Shown: positions 4,475 through 56,823 of the stretch, piece after piece
Numbering within the stretch: position 1 is the stretch's first letter
Layout of the letters: every line of letters begins with the position of its first letter
Source: Halobaculum sp. MBLA0147
Lineage (GTDB): Archaea > Halobacteriota > Halobacteria > Halobacteriales > Haloferacaceae
DNA length: 64,000 bases
Assembly: GCF_041361345.1 (NCBI RefSeq)
Contig: NZ_JBGKAD010000001.1
Span: forward strand, 2,914,001-2,978,000
Reading direction: 5' to 3'
Program-made: the position numbers and the translations under genes
The notes under the pieces: model-generated
Told to the model about the DNA's origin: nothing
The model's database searches: none
The model's input: the letters and a program-made list of their open reading frames with translations, nothing else

Positions 4475-6307
4475 ATGTCTAGTGACACCGTAGTCTCGGG
4501 GCGTGTCGTCCAGCCGCCGGCGGGGCCGGCGGCGGACGTGCCGGTCAGACTCGTCGCGGGGAGCGAGGCGGCCGACGACACACGGACGGACGGGGAGCCA
4601 CTCGCGGAGGCGGAGACGGACGCGTCGGGGACGTTCGACCTCGTCGTCGACGAGTCGCCCGCGGCAGTCGCCGACTCGGAGCCGACGCTCGAAGTCGTCG
4701 GACCCGGGTCGGAGCCGCTGGCACGCGAGTCCGTGACCGAACTGGTCGCCGACGGTGGCGGCGAACTCGACACCGTCGTGCTCCCGGCGAGTGCAGACCT
4801 CGACGGCGACGCCGCCGACGCGACGGCCGACGGCGGCCAGGTCTCCTCGTCGGTCGCGACGATGCTCGTCGGCGGCTACGCGGGCGACTCGCAGATGCCC
4901 CACCACGGCACCGTCGAACAGCGCGGGATGACGGAGACGCCGCGTCGCCCCGGCACACGTGGGTTCGGGCGGTTCCGGCGGCTGTTCGACGCGCTGCCCC
5001 CGGCCACCCACGACCCGGAGTTCCTCGAACTGCTCGGGCGCGAGGGTGGCCCGATGGACGGCGGCGAGCGCGAGCGGCCGGAGGACAGCGACTTCCCGCC
5101 GGCGGGGTACGTGTTCTTCGGGCAGTTCGTCGACCACGACGTGACCTTGGACCCCACGTCGAGTCTCGACAGACAGAACGACCCGGACGCCTTGCGGAAC
5201 TTCCGGACGCCGGGGACGGACCTGGACAACGTGTACGGCGCCGGCCCCGAGGTGAGTCGCCACCTCTACCAGCGTGGTGCGCCCCGCGGCGAGGCGACCG
5301 AACAGGCCGACCCGGCGAAGTTCCTCCTCCGGCGCAACGACGCCGGGGAGTTGGCCGACGTGCCGCGAAACAGCCAGGAGACGGCACTGATCGGCGACCC
5401 ACGCAACGACGAGAACCTGATCGTCTCGCAGGTCCAGTGTTCGATGCTGTCGGCACACAACGAGATCGTCGACAGACTCGAAGCCGAGGGGATCGAGGAG
5501 GGGCGCTTCGAGGAGGCCCAACAGCTGCTCCGGTGGACGTACCAGTGGCTACTGTTGAACGACTTCCTCCCGCGGGTGTGTGACCCCGAGATCGTCGAGT
5601 CGGTCCGCGAGGAGGGCCGCGAGTTCTACCAGGTGCCCGACGACGACCGGCCGTTCGTGCCCCTGGAGTTCGCGGGGGCCGCGTACCGGTACGGCCACAG
5701 TCGGATCGAGGAGCGGTACACGGTCAACGACGAGTTCGAGGCGGACCTGTTCACCGCCGAAGGGGGGCCGACGCTGCGCGGCTTCCGCGTGGTGCCGTCG
5801 GACCGCACCGTCGACTGGGCGCGGTTCTTCGACCTGGACGGCGGCTCCGTCCAGCGTGTCGCCCCCATCGACACCGTCCTCCCGAACAGTCTGATGGACC
5901 TCCCGTTCGTCGGCGAGGGGCCGTCGTCGCTGGCGGCTCGCAACCTCGTCCGCGGGCGACGGCTCGGGCTCCCGTCCGGCCAGGCGGTGGCGCGCGCGAT
6001 GGGTGTCGACCCGCTCTCCAGCGAGGCGGTCGGCTTCACCGAGGCCGCCGAGGCGGTCCCGGTCGCGCCCGGCGACCGGGAGACGCCGCTGTGGTTCTAC
6101 GTCCTCGGCGAGGCGGCGGAGGAACACGACGGCGCGCGCCTCGGTCCGGTCGGGAGTCGGCTCGTCGCGGAGACGCTCGTCGGCCTCGTCGACGAGAACC
6201 CCAAGTCCTACCGGCGACTCCAGCCGAACTGGACGCCCGCGGACCCGGACGTGCTCCCGTTCGACAGGCACCTCACCGTCGGGGAACTGCTCGCCTTCGG
6301 GCGGTGA
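4475..6307 (+). CDS. Animal-type haem peroxidase (peroxidase-cyclooxygenase superfamily) with N-terminal beta domain
   Basis: The 610-residue protein matches the animal haem peroxidase fold. F-G-Q-F-V-D-H-D-V-T carries the distal His near residue 221. G-D-P-R-N-D-E-N-L-I then S-A-H-N is the conserved helix of bacterial members, and Y-G-H-S-R-I supplies the likely proximal His near 408. Residues 1-115 look like a small carboxypeptidase-regulatory or CNA-B-like beta domain (SGRVVQP ... GTFDL). No signal peptide is present, so the enzyme is probably cytosolic unless exported in another way. The substrate is unknown; peroxide-dependent oxidation of halide or organic compounds is typical. An A/T-rich promoter region (GTAATTTC near 4440) lies just before the ATG. 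Confidence 0.85.
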   Translation: MSSDTVVSGRVVQPPAGPAADVPVRLVAGSEAADDTRTDGEPLAEAETDASGTFDLVVDESPAAVADSEPTLEVVGPGSEPLARESVTELVADGGGELDTVVLPASADLDGDAADATADGGQVSSSVATMLVGGYAGDSQMPHHGTVEQRGMTETPRRPGTRGFGRFRRLFDALPPATHDPEFLELLGREGGPMDGGERERPEDSDFPPAGYVFFGQFVDHDVTLDPTSSLDRQNDPDALRNFRTPGTDLDNVYGAGPEVSRHLYQRGAPRGEATEQADPAKFLLRRNDAGELADVPRNSQETALIGDPRNDENLIVSQVQCSMLSAHNEIVDRLEAEGIEEGRFEEAQQLLRWTYQWLLLNDFLPRVCDPEIVESVREEGREFYQVPDDDRPFVPLEFAGAAYRYGHSRIEERYTVNDEFEADLFTAEGGPTLRGFRVVPSDRTVDWARFFDLDGGSVQRVAPIDTVLPNSLMDLPFVGEGPSSLAARNLVRGRRLGLPSGQAVARAMGVDPLSSEAVGFTEAAEAVPVAPGDRETPLWFYVLGEAAEEHDGARLGPVGSRLVAETLVGLVDENPKSYRRLQPNWTPADPDVLPFDRHLTVGELLAFGR

Positions 6308-49657: not shown

Positions 49658-50734
49658 TCAGATGTCCACGTCACCCGCGAGCCGGTCCAACGCCAGCACG
49701 ACGACGGCGCCGGCGGCGGCGGCGACGAGGAACGCGCCGACGACGGTCGGCGTCCACGACCGCCCGGCCTCCGCGAGTGCGGTCGTCGTCCCGGCGACCG
49801 GTGCACGCAACGCACCCACGACCAGGCCGACGAGGAACGTCGTCGTCGTCCGCCGGTCGCGAGCCAACGCCGCCCGCACCACCCGCGCCACCGACAGGAG
49901 GCCGACGACCCCGCCCGCGACGAATACGGCGACGGTGACGACGAGCGGACCCAACTCGGGTGCCGACCCGCCGGTCGCGACCGTCGACAGCGCCGTCAGC
50001 AGCTCCTTCAGCGCCCCCGACATGCGCTCGTACTGCCCGATGATCACGAGGATCAACGACCCGGAGATCCCGGGCAACAGCATCGCGCTCACCGCGAGCG
50101 CCCCGGCGAGGAACGTCGCGGGCAGCGACCCGCTCAGTGCCGCCCGTGCACTCCCCGAGGCGACGCCGGCGATCGCGACGGCGGCGAGGAAGGCGACGAG
50201 ACCGCGCGTCTCGTCGACTGCGACGGCGTCTCTGAGCACCCACACGGAGGCGGCGATCAACCCGAAGAACGCGCCGAACGTGATCGCCGGCGCCGTCGTC
50301 AACGCCGTGTTCACCGACGGAACGACGATCAACACGGCCGTCACGAGTCCCGCACCGAGCGTCAGGAGGAAGGGCACGTCCGCCTCGCGGAGTGTCTCGA
50401 CGAGGGCGTCCGGTCCCCGTCCGAGATCGGCGAGTAGCCGACGTGCGAGTGACGGGTCGACCGCCGATACCGCCGCGACGAGCCGGTCGTAGATCCCCGT
50501 GATGAGTGCGACGGTCCCACCGGAGACGCCGGGAACGCCGTCCGCAGTTCCCATCGCGAACCCACGGAGGTACGCTCCCGGCGTCGACACGTCGCCCTCG
50601 ACGACCGCCTCTGTCGACGGTTCCGATCCGGTCCCACCGGGGTGAGTCGGCGTCGTGTCGTCGACGGCCGACGACTCGGCGTCGTCGACTCCCGCCGCTC
50701 CAGTCCCGCCGTCGGGCGACGTGTCACTCGTCAT
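49658..50734 (-). CDS. DUF368 polyprenyl-phosphate transporter-like membrane protein
   Basis: The 358-residue protein has an acidic tail (1-50) and the DUF368 fold: G-F-A-M-G-T-A-D-G-V-P-G-V-S-G-G-T near 57, then about eight membrane segments with the second conserved motif L-L-P-G-I-S-G-S near 224. Bacterial members (PopT) flip undecaprenyl phosphate back to the cytosolic face after glycan transfer. Here it starts four bases past the aglB stop, so it is probably cotranscribed with the oligosaccharyltransferase that frees dolichol phosphate. The inference is that it recycles that carrier. Its exact lipid is unproven. Confidence 0.82.
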   Translation of the reverse strand: MTSDTSPDGGTGAAGVDDAESSAVDDTTPTHPGGTGSEPSTEAVVEGDVSTPGAYLRGFAMGTADGVPGVSGGTVALITGIYDRLVAAVSAVDPSLARRLLADLGRGPDALVETLREADVPFLLTLGAGLVTAVLIVVPSVNTALTTAPAITFGAFFGLIAASVWVLRDAVAVDETRGLVAFLAAVAIAGVASGSARAALSGSLPATFLAGALAVSAMLLPGISGSLILVIIGQYERMSGALKELLTALSTVATGGSAPELGPLVVTVAVFVAGGVVGLLSVARVVRAALARDRRTTTTFLVGLVVGALRAPVAGTTTALAEAGRSWTPTVVGAFLVAAAAGAVVVLALDRLAGDVDI

Positions 50735-50738
50735 CGTC

Positions 50739-53700
50739 TCACTGTCGTACCGCCCGCGACAGTACGTCTGCCGAGCGGACACGAGCGTCTGGTACCGCCG
50801 TGTCGTCGGACACGCCACCGTCGCCACGCGTGTCTGTGCCGTCCGCCGAACGCTCCGAGCCGTCCGCGGAGCCGTCCATCGGCACGGAGACGCCGTCGGC
50901 ACCGCCCAGCGCGGCGGACTCGTTGCCACCGGTCTCGTTGCCGGCGGACTCGTCACCGCTCCCGGTCGTCGCACCCTCGGGGGCGCGACGGACCGTCTCC
51001 GACAGTTCGACGCTCACCTCGCCGTCGTCGGCGCCGTTGACGTCGCCCTCGGAGACGTTCAAGATCGCGGCGTTCTGGAGCACGTAGGCGGACTCGTTCG
51101 TCCGCAGGTCACCGGCGACCCGGTACGGACCGGCCGCCCGGACGGAGACGTTCGTGTACCCGTTCTCGGGACCGAACTCGTCGTAGTCGGTCGTGGCGTA
51201 CGGCAGCGTCATCGTGAACTCACCGTCGGCGTCCGCCGTCGCCTGCTGCCGGTAGACGAACGTCGTCGCGTTCTGTCCCTGCCCACCGGGGATTCGCATC
51301 CTGACCGCCGCGGTCACCGTCTCGTTGGGTTCCGCACCGCTCCCGGTGACGGTCGCGCCGGGGACACGCTCGAACGTCTTCACCCACGACGGCGTGTTCT
51401 TGAAGAGGGTCCCCGGACGGGCGCCCAGTCCACGTGCTGCCCGGAGCTGGTCGGCGCGGTACTGCCCGTCGGCGAACGCGGTCGTCGCCGTCGCGTTCAC
51501 GAGCCGGTAGTGTTCCAGTGCCGGCACCGGTTCGCGCGGAATCTGTCCGATTCCACCGATCCGAGCCGACCCGTCGCGCTCGACGAACGCCTCGGCCGCA
51601 CTCCGGTTCCGGAACGTCTGGATCGCCGAGCCGTTCCGCGGCACGCTCTTGAACTCGACTCCAGTCTGGCTCTGGATCACGTCGTAGTCGAACACGACGA
51701 CCCGGTCACCGACGAGCGGCCGACGGATCGTCGGCTCCGCACGACTCCCGTGGTAGGCGTACAGCCGGACCATCGTACTCTCGTAGTACCGCTGCCGTCT
51801 GTCCGGTGCGATCCGCTGGAAGCCACGCTGTTGGCCGCTGGCCGGAGCGAGGATCTGTTTGACACCACCGTTGGGACCCGTCGCGAAGAAGTCGCCGGCC
51901 GAGACGTTCCCGGCGTCGTAGAACTGGACCGGCGCGGAGAACTTCGGATTCTGTCCCGACAAGACCGACGTCATCTTGTAGTCGACCATCACGTACCGCG
52001 TCTGGTCACCCTCCTCGCCGCGTTCGAGCAGTGCCTCCCGGGCCGCCGACTCGTTGGGGGCCAGCAGGAAGTTCGCCGCCTGTCGTGCCCCCTCCTGGAA
52101 CGGGTTGGCGTTGGGAATCCGCTCGCCACGCATCGTGATCCAGTGACCGTAGTCCCACCACGACTGGACGCCGTACGCCCCGTCGGAGTAGTCGAAGTCA
52201 CTGTCGGCTGGCCTGTCGTACTGCCCGTAGAACGCCATCGGCTCGTCGGCGTCGCCGAAGGTCCCCTCCTCGGGGGTGTTCCCCTGGAGGTACTCGAGAC
52301 TCTGACCCCACACGACGGTCGACGCGTCGGGCCCGTCCTCGCTCGCCTGGAGTGCGTTCTGTGTCGGGGCGTTCCGGGGACCGAGGTTCATCGACACGCC
52401 CAACACCGGGACCAGAACCAGCATGAGCACGACGACCGCCGTGAGCACCTGGTACGTCTCGACGTCGGGTGCCTCGAGTCCGCTCCCGAGGTCGATGTCG
52501 ACCACCGCGAGCACGTCGCGGACGAACGGCGCCGTGAACACCGCCACGGCGACCGCGAGGTAGTAGTTGAATCGGTTCTGCGTGAACGCCGCCATCGTCA
52601 TGAAGATCGCCCACACGAGGACGAACAGCGTCTCCGGCTCGTACCGGATCCGCGTCGCCGCCGCGAACACGATCCCGGCGATCACGAACACGCCGGCCAG
52701 TTCCGGCGCGACGCCCAGCGGCGAGACGATCAGTCCGAACACGTCCGGGACCGGACCGAAGTTCCCGGCGAACACGACGAGCGTCGCCAGTCCGGCGAAC
52801 CCGATGAACCGGTAGTCACGGCCCGCCCCGCGTCGGTACATCGGCCCGACCAACGTCCAGACGGCGCCGATCACCGCGGCCGGGAACGCGAACCCGTACT
52901 CCCGGAGGACGACGCCCACGTCGCCGAAGATCCGTGCGGCACGCGACCCGAGGAACGGCTGTGCCTCGGCGATGGTGAGGGTGTTCCCTCCGGCACCGAA
53001 CCCGACGATCCGGAGCAGGTTCCCTTCGATACTCGACAGCGGCCCGGCGTCGACGACACCGAGGACGATCAGACCGACGACGGCGGTACCCGCGACGGTC
53101 GCGACGTACCCGTTCTCGTCGGCCCACTCGTTGTCGAACGTCCGCGCCTCGAACTGTCTGGAGAGCCACGCGAGCCCGACACCGCCGACCGCCACACTCA
53201 CCCCGACGACCGGTTGGAGGAGACTCAGCCTCGTCGCGGAGAACGAGGTCGTGTCGATCCCGACGAGCGTGAGCAGCGCCACCGTGACTCCCGTGACGGC
53301 GACGACGAACCCGGTGTGTTCCGGCGGCCGACCGCTCGCGTGGTCCGACACCGCCTGGAGGACGGCGAACACGCCGAACACACCGACCAGCAGGACACCG
53401 GGCGGCCACGCGTAGATGTACGCCGCCATCGCGACCCCGGCGAGGACACTGTACGTCGTCGAGCGACGCAGGTCCCCCCACTCGCGGGCCGTGACGAGCT
53501 CCCAGATCGGCCGGTCCTCTCTCGCGACGGCCAGCGCGACGACGGTCGCGAACACTGCAGTCACCTGGAACAGCGGCTCGACGCCGTTGTGGTCCGCGAA
53601 CCCGGCCAGCGTCCGCTGGAGGAACGTCCCGGGCAACAGCATCAACACGACCGCGGCGAACAGTGCCGGCACACGCCCCGCGAGCCGCTTGGCGACCAAG

Positions 53701-54143
53701 TACGCCGGGATGGCCGTCAACGCACCCGCGACCGCCGGTGCGACGAGGAGTGTCTTCGCCACCAACTCCGGCGACGGGGAGCCGAGACCGACGATCAGTG
53801 CGGCCGTCGCGACGATCTGGTCGTACAGTGTCCCGAACTGTCCCACGGAGGTGCCCAGCGGGAAGTTCGTCCACGGGTCGTACGGCATCGTGGACGGCCA
53901 GTGTCTGACGACGTACCGGACCTCGCGGAGGTGGTACCACGCGTCGTTCCCGGAGAACAGGACCTCACCGCCTCGGACGTAGTTGGAGTACGGACGGAGC
54001 CGTATCCACAGCATCGTGGCGACGACGACCAGGAGTACCGGGACCTCGAACCGGTCCCGGACGGCTCCCAGCGCGGAGGTCGCCGCCCCGGTCTCGTCGG
54101 AGACCGAGGAGGACCCCTCGTCACGCTCACTACTGTGACTCAT
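50739..54143 (-). CDS. aglB: Dolichyl-phosphooligosaccharide--protein glycotransferase AglB
   Basis: The 1134-residue enzyme transfers glycan from a dolichol-linked donor to Asn in N-x-S/T sequons on the outer face of the membrane. It has about 13 membrane segments in the first 570 residues and the acidic loop S-G-N-D-A-W-Y-H near residue 67. W-W-D-Y-G-H-W near 662 is the STT3 signature, followed by a beta-rich C-terminal domain (from about 880). It is longer than bacterial PglB, as in other haloarchaea. A GCTTATTG box 25-32 bases before the ATG makes it leaderless. Confidence 0.95.
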   Translation of the reverse strand: MSHSSERDEGSSSVSDETGAATSALGAVRDRFEVPVLLVVVATMLWIRLRPYSNYVRGGEVLFSGNDAWYHLREVRYVVRHWPSTMPYDPWTNFPLGTSVGQFGTLYDQIVATAALIVGLGSPSPELVAKTLLVAPAVAGALTAIPAYLVAKRLAGRVPALFAAVVLMLLPGTFLQRTLAGFADHNGVEPLFQVTAVFATVVALAVAREDRPIWELVTAREWGDLRRSTTYSVLAGVAMAAYIYAWPPGVLLVGVFGVFAVLQAVSDHASGRPPEHTGFVVAVTGVTVALLTLVGIDTTSFSATRLSLLQPVVGVSVAVGGVGLAWLSRQFEARTFDNEWADENGYVATVAGTAVVGLIVLGVVDAGPLSSIEGNLLRIVGFGAGGNTLTIAEAQPFLGSRAARIFGDVGVVLREYGFAFPAAVIGAVWTLVGPMYRRGAGRDYRFIGFAGLATLVVFAGNFGPVPDVFGLIVSPLGVAPELAGVFVIAGIVFAAATRIRYEPETLFVLVWAIFMTMAAFTQNRFNYYLAVAVAVFTAPFVRDVLAVVDIDLGSGLEAPDVETYQVLTAVVVLMLVLVPVLGVSMNLGPRNAPTQNALQASEDGPDASTVVWGQSLEYLQGNTPEEGTFGDADEPMAFYGQYDRPADSDFDYSDGAYGVQSWWDYGHWITMRGERIPNANPFQEGARQAANFLLAPNESAAREALLERGEEGDQTRYVMVDYKMTSVLSGQNPKFSAPVQFYDAGNVSAGDFFATGPNGGVKQILAPASGQQRGFQRIAPDRRQRYYESTMVRLYAYHGSRAEPTIRRPLVGDRVVVFDYDVIQSQTGVEFKSVPRNGSAIQTFRNRSAAEAFVERDGSARIGGIGQIPREPVPALEHYRLVNATATTAFADGQYRADQLRAARGLGARPGTLFKNTPSWVKTFERVPGATVTGSGAEPNETVTAAVRMRIPGGQGQNATTFVYRQQATADADGEFTMTLPYATTDYDEFGPENGYTNVSVRAAGPYRVAGDLRTNESAYVLQNAAILNVSEGDVNGADDGEVSVELSETVRRAPEGATTGSGDESAGNETGGNESAALGGADGVSVPMDGSADGSERSADGTDTRGDGGVSDDTAVPDARVRSADVLSRAVRQ

Positions 54144-54167
54144 TGTCCCCACGAACCCCGAAAACGG

Positions 54168-54175
54168 CAATAAGC
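54168..54175 (-). promoter_or_regulatory. TATA box of aglB
   Basis: GCTTATTG on the minus strand lies 25-32 bases before the ATG at 54143, in the standard position, and would drive aglB and the DUF368 gene together. Confidence 0.65.
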
Positions 54176-54270
54176 CTTGTTATTCCCGTACGACGGCGAG
54201 GAGCAACGAGTCGTCGAGATCGGCCGACGGCGGGACCCTCGCGATCCCACCCAGACGGCTCACCGAGCCG

Positions 54271-54404: not shown

Positions 54405-55577
54405 TCAGTGCCGGTACACGTCGAGCAGTCTGTCGACGACGCCCGTCCACGTCGGCACCGCGTCCGGATCCGGTCGCGGGCCGTCGACGGCACGCTCGAC
54501 GGCCTCGGCCACGGCCGCCGGAGAGGTCTCCGCGAGGCCGACGACACCCCGTTCGTCGGTCCAGTCGGTCAACGCCGCGCGGTCGGCGACGACGGCTGGC
54601 GTGCCGCTCGCGAGCGCCTCCGCGACCGTCAACCCGTACGCCTCGTGTGACGACGGCGAACAGAACACCGCCGCACCGGCGTACAGTCCCGGGAGTCGCT
54701 CGTCCGGGACGTACCCGAGGAACCGGACGCGGTCGCTCACACCCGCAGCCGCCGCCCGCTCGCGCAGTGCCGACTCGTACGGGCCGGACCCGGCGACACG
54801 GAGGTCGAACGCCGGCAACTCGGCGAGCGCGTCGATCACGTGCTGGACTCCCTTGTACGCCGCCAGCCGACCGACGGTGAGCAGGTACGGGCGGTCGGCG
54901 TCGTCCGCCCTCTCTTCGTCGTCCCCTCTCTCTCCGTCGTCTCCCCTCTCTTCGTCGTCCGCACCTTCTCGGTGGTCCCGGAACCGCTCGCGTTCGATCC
55001 CGTTCGGGATCACGGTCGGTGAGACGCCGAAGTCGGCCGCCAACTGTCGTCGCTCCCAGTCACTCACGGCGACCACCGTGTCCGCAGCACGGAGCACACC
55101 TGCACCGAGTGGCCGGTACACGGAGAGGAGGCGATCTCTGAGCCCGTCGTCGCTCTCGCCGTGGTAGTGTGGTGTCGCGACGAGGCGCGGTGCTGGCTCG
55201 TCACCGCTCGCGCGCAGCGCCCGCACCGCACGCACCGCCGCCGTCGTCAGACCTCCGAGGGCGAACGGCACCGCGTGGTAGTTGTGGACGTGGACCACGT
55301 CGGGCACGCTGGGAGCGACCGCACCTCGGAGCGCCCGCCACACAGTCGTGACGACGCCGGGGGCGACGTAGATGGCGCCGTCCGGTGCGAGCGCCCGGAC
55401 GCGTCGGACACGGACCCCGTCGCGGCGTTCGCGTGAGGCACCCGCTCCGCCGGCGTCCGCCGCGAGCACCGTCACGTCGTGGCCGCGCTCGACGAGTCGT
55501 GTCGCCAACTGGTGGACGTGGGTCTCGACGCCGCCGGTCTGTGGTGGGTAACGGTGGGTGACGTAACAGACGTGCAC
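54405..55577 (-). CDS. GT4 family glycosyltransferase
   Basis: The 390-residue protein starts V-C-Y-V-T-H-R-Y-P-P-Q-T-G-G-V-E-T-H with the GT4 glycine loop, has V-I-P-N-G-I-E near 192, V-G-R-L-A-A-Y-K-G, and the E-A-Y-G-L-T-V-A-E-A-L-A-S-G-T-P donor-binding motif near 310. An acidic repeat of G-D-D-E-E-R near 205-225 is a haloarchaeal insert. It adds a sugar to a glycan or lipid, and lies 16 bases past the GT2 gene in the same operon. A role in the AglB glycan is inferred from position only. Confidence 0.88.
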   Translation of the reverse strand: MHVCYVTHRYPPQTGGVETHVHQLATRLVERGHDVTVLAADAGGAGASRERRDGVRVRRVRALAPDGAIYVAPGVVTTVWRALRGAVAPSVPDVVHVHNYHAVPFALGGLTTAAVRAVRALRASGDEPAPRLVATPHYHGESDDGLRDRLLSVYRPLGAGVLRAADTVVAVSDWERRQLAADFGVSPTVIPNGIERERFRDHREGADDEERGDDGERGDDEERADDADRPYLLTVGRLAAYKGVQHVIDALAELPAFDLRVAGSGPYESALRERAAAAGVSDRVRFLGYVPDERLPGLYAGAAVFCSPSSHEAYGLTVAEALASGTPAVVADRAALTDWTDERGVVGLAETSPAAVAEAVERAVDGPRPDPDAVPTWTGVVDRLLDVYRH

Positions 55578-55593
55578 GGTCGTGACCTCGGCG

Positions 55594-56751
55594 TCAGTCG
55601 TACGCCTCGCGCAGTTCCTCGTCGACCTCCCACAGCCCGTCGCCCTCGCCGGCCAGTAGCTTCACCGCGGCTCGCACGAGCGACACCTGCGTGTCGAACA
55701 GCGAGTAGACGGGCTGGAGCGAGCCGAGCAGGTCCCGCGAGCCCGCGGCGACGAACCCGGCGACGGCCACCGGAACGAGCAGTCCAGCCGGCCCGGCCAA
55801 CGCGAGGCCGGCCAGTGTCGCCGTCGCGACTCCGGCGGCGACGAGCCACGGGGAGACGACGGTGAACCACCAGTTGAACGGGAGGACGAGGGCACCGTAC
55901 AGCCCGTAACGGGGACGGAACAACATCCCGCGCTGTCGCCACAGGAGTCTGAGCAGTCCCATCGCGCGCCGGTCCTTCTGACTGCGCCGCTTGCGGAACG
56001 CGGAGTGGGACGCCTCCTTGTACCGGATCGCGGGGTCGAACAGGGCCCGGTCCCCGTTCTTGCGGATCTTCAGGGCCAGTTCCGTGTCGTCCGCGATGGA
56101 GTCCTCGTCGACGGGGACGATCGCGTCGCGTTCGAACGCCGAGAACGGCCCGTGGAAGATGAACGTCGAGTCGAGGTGTGACTCCAGCGTCTGGATCCGC
56201 GCCTGTACGTCGCGGTAGCCGCGCTCCACGTCACTGCCGCCGAGTACCTCGGCGTTGCGGCCGGTGACGGCCGCCACGTCGGGGTCCGCGAGGTTCGCGA
56301 CCGCCTCGCGGACGGCGTCGGGCGCGACGCGAGAGTCACAGTCCGTCTTGACGACGACCTCGTTGCTCGCGGCGGCGTACGCCTCGTTGAGCGCCACCGC
56401 GAGGCCGCGGCGCTCCTCCTCGCGGAGGAGCGTCAGCTCCGGGGTGACGCGGTCGGCGAAGAACGACTCGACGATGTCGGGTGTCGCGTCCTCGCTGGAG
56501 TCGACGACGACGACCTCGACGCGGTCCATCGGGTAGTCCCAACTACAGATACTCTGGAGCTTCGACTCGACGATGGCGGCCTCCTCGTACGTCGGGAGGA
56601 CGACGCTCACCGACGGCAACTCGTCGTACCGCTTGTCCGCCGGAGAGCCCTCCGGGTCGACGACGACCGCCAGGGCGGCGAAGACGAGGTACGGGAGTCC
56701 CGTCGCGGCGACCAACCGGGCCAACAGTTCGAGAGGACGACGCGCTCGCAT
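55594..56751 (-). CDS. GT2 family glycosyltransferase with C-terminal membrane segments
   Basis: The 385-residue protein has an N-terminal hydrophobic segment (about 10-30), then the GT2 core: V-S-V-V-L-P-T-Y-E-E near 48, V-V-V-D-S-S near 80, the metal-binding D-C-D-S near 138, and D-D-T-E-L-A near 220 as catalytic region. Two or three membrane helices (about 285-345) follow. It resembles haloarchaeal Agl-type glycosyltransferases that build the lipid-linked oligosaccharide. The ATG at 56751 was preferred over an upstream GTG that adds only Arg-rich residues. Confidence 0.85.
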   Translation of the reverse strand: MRARRPLELLARLVAATGLPYLVFAALAVVVDPEGSPADKRYDELPSVSVVLPTYEEAAIVESKLQSICSWDYPMDRVEVVVVDSSEDATPDIVESFFADRVTPELTLLREEERRGLAVALNEAYAAASNEVVVKTDCDSRVAPDAVREAVANLADPDVAAVTGRNAEVLGGSDVERGYRDVQARIQTLESHLDSTFIFHGPFSAFERDAIVPVDEDSIADDTELALKIRKNGDRALFDPAIRYKEASHSAFRKRRSQKDRRAMGLLRLLWRQRGMLFRPRYGLYGALVLPFNWWFTVVSPWLVAAGVATATLAGLALAGPAGLLVPVAVAGFVAAGSRDLLGSLQPVYSLFDTQVSLVRAAVKLLAGEGDGLWEVDEELREAYD

Positions 56752-56823
56752 ACCGCGCCGTACAGCGACCCCGCACAAAACGACGGCGGTCCGGCCGTCG
56801 GTAGTGTTCGGATACGGCCGGAC

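Follow-up and report, generated by a model that had tools for sequence, protein, structure and literature searches.

The DUF368 proteins of V. cholerae and S. aureus have been described as candidate C55-P translocases; that of Haloferax volcanii, HVO_RS12060, partially complements a V. cholerae ΔVCA0040 strain (PMC9876793). The aglB gene of H. volcanii, encoding the archaeal oligosaccharyltransferase, is HVO_RS12050 according to two independent papers (PMC7749143, PMC5131992). Since the locus tags run in steps of five, one gene lies between HVO_RS12050 and HVO_RS12060, as in five related Haloferax species, and the archaeal gene already tested in V. cholerae is therefore almost certainly a neighbour of aglB. 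A literature search for AglB together with DUF368 returned no paper, and the connection appears to be unstated there. The search likewise found no DUF368 transport assay or deletion in any archaeon and no demonstration of direction, substrate or glycosylation phenotype for an archaeal DUF368 protein.

How dolichyl phosphate regains the cytosolic face is, to our knowledge, not settled for N-glycosylation in general, eukaryotes included. No gene for the return of the spent carrier is named in the papers on the archaeal pathway that were consulted (e.g., PMC3871713, PMC4335974). The characterised archaeal N-glycans are built on dolichol monophosphate; for Halobacterium salinarum, use of both the monophosphate and the pyrophosphate has been proposed (PMC4476749).

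The window, i.e., the whole stretch of DNA analysed here, comprises 64,000 nucleotides of Halobaculum sp. MBLA0147 (contig NZ_JBGKAD010000001.1, positions 2,914,001 to 2,978,000). It carries aglB and a DUF368 gene side by side, with the following features:

54144–54190, minus strand: candidate aglB promoter region (inferred), with an AT-rich element located some 41 nt upstream of the start codon
50739–54143, minus strand: aglB, archaeal oligosaccharyltransferase of 1134 aa (TIGR04154; STT3, AglB core and AglB_L1 domains; WWDYG motif)
50735–50738, minus strand: gap of exactly 4 nt between the aglB stop and the DUF368 start
49658–50734, minus strand: DUF368/PopT-family polyprenyl-phosphate transporter of 358 aa (PF04018)

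Elsewhere in the window (4475–6307, plus strand), a 610-aa protein matches animal haem peroxidase (PF03098, E 7e-21), an unexpected finding in a haloarchaeon.

The aglB frame extends from 54170 to 50739 on the minus strand; ATG at 54143 is the preferred start, an in-frame TTG is present upstream at 54170, and the TGA stop occupies 50741–50739. The product scores 832 bits against TIGR04154 (E 5.9e-250, cut-off 450 bits) and also matches PF02516, PF22627 and PF18079, which represent the STT3, AglB core and AglB_L1 domains. The above-threshold profile score and the WWDYG motif at residue 662 identify it as AglB; a GNDAWYH motif is located at residue 65. It is the sole full TIGR04154 match in the genome. 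A second STT3-like gene of the same genome (C1:1503249–1505201) reaches 102 bits, below the cut-off, and could encode another oligosaccharyltransferase-like enzyme.

The DUF368 gene begins with ATG at 50734, and its stop ends at 49658. Its product scores 196.9 bits against PF04018 (E 5.6e-58, cut-off 26), and a genome-wide profile search yielded this single copy of the family. Against the NCBIfam PopT equivalogs NF052564 and NF052563 the protein reaches 163 and 91 bits, below the cut-off of 400 in both cases; by profile score it is thus a PF04018 member with no orthologue-grade match to these bacterial models. The confident AlphaFold model (mean pLDDT 88.5) is all-helical. It has two halves, and in both of them a PGxSG segment forms a break between helices; this polytopic helical architecture with one PGxSG segment per half is the one characteristic of PF04018. 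The motifs are PGVSGGT at 68 and PGISGS at 221. In an alignment of 58 haloarchaeal DUF368 proteins, P68, G69, S71 and G72 and likewise P221, G222, S224 and G225 are invariant, and the charged residues D65, R84, D119 and R294 are fully or almost fully conserved. A sequence search revealed no solved relative of the protein. Foldseek gave a best E of 0.22 for any chain, and the comparison with BacA (6fmt; VIA Z 5.2, rmsd 4.5, 152 aligned) did not rise above unrelated rows; the BacA, ZIP and aquaporin matches are weak and tied, and no solved fold matches clearly.

As an earlier note on this DNA had stated, DUF368 starts four bases past the AglB stop. The 261 nt that precede aglB contain an AT-rich octamer of 88% AT, about 41 nt upstream of the ATG, in surrounding DNA of 70% GC. 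Before DUF368 no comparable element is found, all octamers over the 200 nt upstream being at most 50% AT. A shared promoter and a single transcript are plausible, and the presence of the AT-rich element before aglB alone fits them. A fusion of the two genes was also considered for one genome with a long DUF368 frame (G029, 1066 aa) and was rejected, that frame being out of frame with aglB.

The earlier note had proposed a survey of this neighbourhood across haloarchaea, and its outcome is strongly positive. Profile searches for AglB and DUF368 were performed in 146 Halobacteriales genomes and gene distances were measured, a pair being counted where a same-strand DUF368 follows aglB at no more than 3 kb. 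DUF368 is present in 142 of the 146 genomes and AglB exceeds its cut-off in 141; pairing is found in 106 genomes from 14 of the 17 sampled families, with profile end and profile start nearly always within about 1 kb. The pairing is neither chance nor a local accident. Some of the unpaired remainder are split by contig ends, and in others the genes are truly apart. About one quarter of the genomes with both genes have them separate or on different contigs; besides genomes with copies of the orphan clade described below, these include a few outside that clade, such as G115, G138, G144, G063 and G010. One genome (G011, 98% complete) has aglB and lacks DUF368. In another (G065, 97% complete), a DUF368 of the linked type is present with no aglB detected and with unrelated surrounding genes (L214, G065:C4:263000-276000), which could reflect either gene loss or an assembly gap.

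A gene-order control, in which every open frame at 80 named aglB loci was clustered by similarity, places DUF368 as the most conserved aglB neighbour (65 of 80 loci, 29 of 36 genera), invariably on the aglB strand. The runner-up, a divergent AglG-type glycosyltransferase, occurs at 43 loci, and the remaining neighbours at 22 or fewer, many in mixed orientation. The other aglB neighbours tested from the window (GT4, GT2, a short-chain dehydrogenase and further frames) have relatives at 0–4 of the 80 loci. DUF368 is thus exceptional in a neighbourhood whose gene order otherwise varies from locus to locus. The GT4 and GT2 glycosyltransferase genes directly upstream of aglB in the window (54405–56778, minus strand), with relatives at 3 and 4 of these loci, are lineage-specific.

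Spacing between the aglB stop and the nearest DUF368 start was compared for the 65 named pairs: the genes overlap or abut in 13, are 1–20 nt apart in 24, 21–200 nt apart in 22 and more than 1 kb apart in 6, so that 37 pairs overlap or lie within 20 nt, although DUF368 start codons were chosen by position and individual values may be off. Overlaps of 1–4 nt are frequent, and those of exactly −4 and −1 occur repeatedly in groups as far apart as Halococcus, Halolamina, Halocatena and the small-genome family f2. In five Haloferax species, including larsenii and elongans, aglM lies on the opposite strand between aglB and DUF368, and Haloquadratum has a same-strand UDP-glucose-dehydrogenase-type gene between them.

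In a maximum-likelihood tree of 103 DUF368 proteins, midpoint-rooted for drawing only, 34 unlinked (orphan) rows form one clade (support 100/97) nested among the aglB-linked copies. Because of this nesting, linkage to aglB is probably ancestral in Halobacteriales. The orphan clade (L184–L222) seems to have had a single origin among the aglB-linked copies. Its members are the sole copy in several lineages, namely in f9 and in some members of families f4 and f7. Eight genomes have both a linked and an orphan DUF368; in every one of them, the copy outside the orphan clade adjoins aglB and the orphan is located elsewhere. No alternative conserved partner of the orphans was detected, the best neighbour occurring at no more than 8 of 35 orphan loci.

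Outside the order, none of the 37 DUF368-bearing genomes of the phylum sample has DUF368 next to aglB, the nearest cases being about 12–20 kb away on the same contig; all 37 encode a TIGR04154 match, 35 of them over the cut-off. The pairing is a haloarchaeal trait, and the claim made here is restricted to haloarchaea. At one non-haloarchaeal locus of the same phylum (L258:16465–19237), genes for uracil phosphoribosyltransferase and a uracil/xanthine-family permease precede DUF368 and share its strand.

We consider it likely that aglB and DUF368 act together in haloarchaeal N-glycosylation as a conserved unit of two genes, in which DUF368 returns dolichyl phosphate inward. On the outer face, AglB would move the glycan from dolichyl-phosphate-glycan to asparagine and leave dolichyl phosphate behind. 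DUF368 would then take this lipid from the outer to the inner face, where it could be reloaded by Agl glycosyltransferases. The product of AglB would be the substrate of DUF368 directly; no phosphatase step, and thus no pyrophosphatase, would be needed between them, because the carrier is a monophosphate and matches the phosphomonoester substrate of the family. Co-transcription could match return capacity to the rate of transfer, and DUF368 may be required in glycosylation. Inward translocation of polyprenyl phosphate by a haloarchaeal DUF368 protein is suggested by the partial complementation obtained with HVO_RS12060 (PMC9876793).

The recycling of the carrier after AglB, as the earlier note had it, is supported by the survey and by this complementation with a gene two locus tags from aglB. 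Its wording, dolichol (pyro)phosphate, holds for the monophosphate and not for the pyrophosphate in most haloarchaea, H. salinarum being the proposed exception (PMC4476749). To call this the missing step is too strong: DedA/VTT proteins (PF09335) are encoded in 141 of the 146 genomes, and the genome G011 has aglB but no DUF368. Redundancy is therefore to be expected, a single DUF368 deletion may show little, and carrier return probably has routes other than DUF368. Complementary presence and absence of DUF368 and DedA was not seen among the 146 genomes, both being near-universal. It is also rather unlikely that AglB and DUF368 form a physical complex passing the freed dolichyl phosphate directly, as a recycling machine dedicated to N-glycosylation. 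We know of no oligosaccharyltransferase for which coupled carrier return of this kind has been described.

DUF368 could instead be a general polyprenyl-phosphate translocase serving every DolP pathway (DolP-mannose, low-salt glycan, exopolysaccharide) and owe its place beside aglB solely to aglB being the source that yields free carrier in the greatest amount or most constantly. Haloarchaea do use DolP in further pathways (PMC3871713; see also PMC9943897); orphan copies distant from aglB are the only DUF368 of several lineages, and G065 retains DUF368 with no aglB detected. However, the linkage of DUF368 to aglB is far tighter than that of aglB to any other glycosylation gene, and we regard this general role, which is compatible with the recycling proposal, as rather unlikely. 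The reverse direction, in which DUF368 would act as an outward flippase of glycan-loaded dolichyl phosphate and supply AglB with substrate, could draw on the published statement that the means by which the lipid-linked glycan of H. volcanii crosses the membrane is unknown (PMC4335974). It appears very unlikely, given that the bacterial relatives are C55-P translocases, one of which the H. volcanii homologue partly replaces (PMC9876793), and that AglR and Agl15 are already the proposed flippases (PMC3871713).

The pairing could also be an old unbroken operon with no functional tie, conserved as a single ancestral state in one order whose genomes are not independent of each other; the unlinked DUF368 genes outside the order, such as the one behind the uracil phosphoribosyltransferase and permease genes, agree with this. 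Yet all other aglB neighbours were shuffled over the same span, orphan DUF368 copies were shuffled freely, and the spacing is near zero even in distant families, which leaves mere inheritance of gene order highly improbable. If the recycling proposal is true, haloarchaea offer a named carrier-return gene beside aglB in a tractable model, and it would suggest why an archaeal DUF368 could partly stand in for a bacterial cell-wall transporter.

Among the known systems, DUF368/PopT (V. cholerae VCA0040, S. aureus SAOUHSC_00846) is the closest: the window protein belongs to the same family, PF04018, has both PGxSG motifs, and shares 31–41% local identity over about 110–130 residues with homologues from Vibrio, Salinivibrio and Photobacterium. 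The bacterial PopT proteins serve cell-wall C55-P after pyrophosphate hydrolysis, whereas in the window an oligosaccharyltransferase gene is the partner and dolichyl phosphate the likely substrate. HVO_RS12060, studied by Sit et al. in 2022 (PMC9876793), is most likely the orthologue of the window protein and lies close to aglB; the main text of that paper does not mention AglB. DedA/UptA (PF09335), the second known carrier-translocase family, is a protein family separate from DUF368. AglR and Agl15 of H. volcanii are membrane proteins of the same pathways that are also proposed to move lipid carriers (PMC3871713), but as outward flippases of the loaded carrier, and they are not DUF368 proteins. 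The window DUF368 is thus a protein of a known family, for which the AglB partner and the likely dolichyl phosphate carrier are new.
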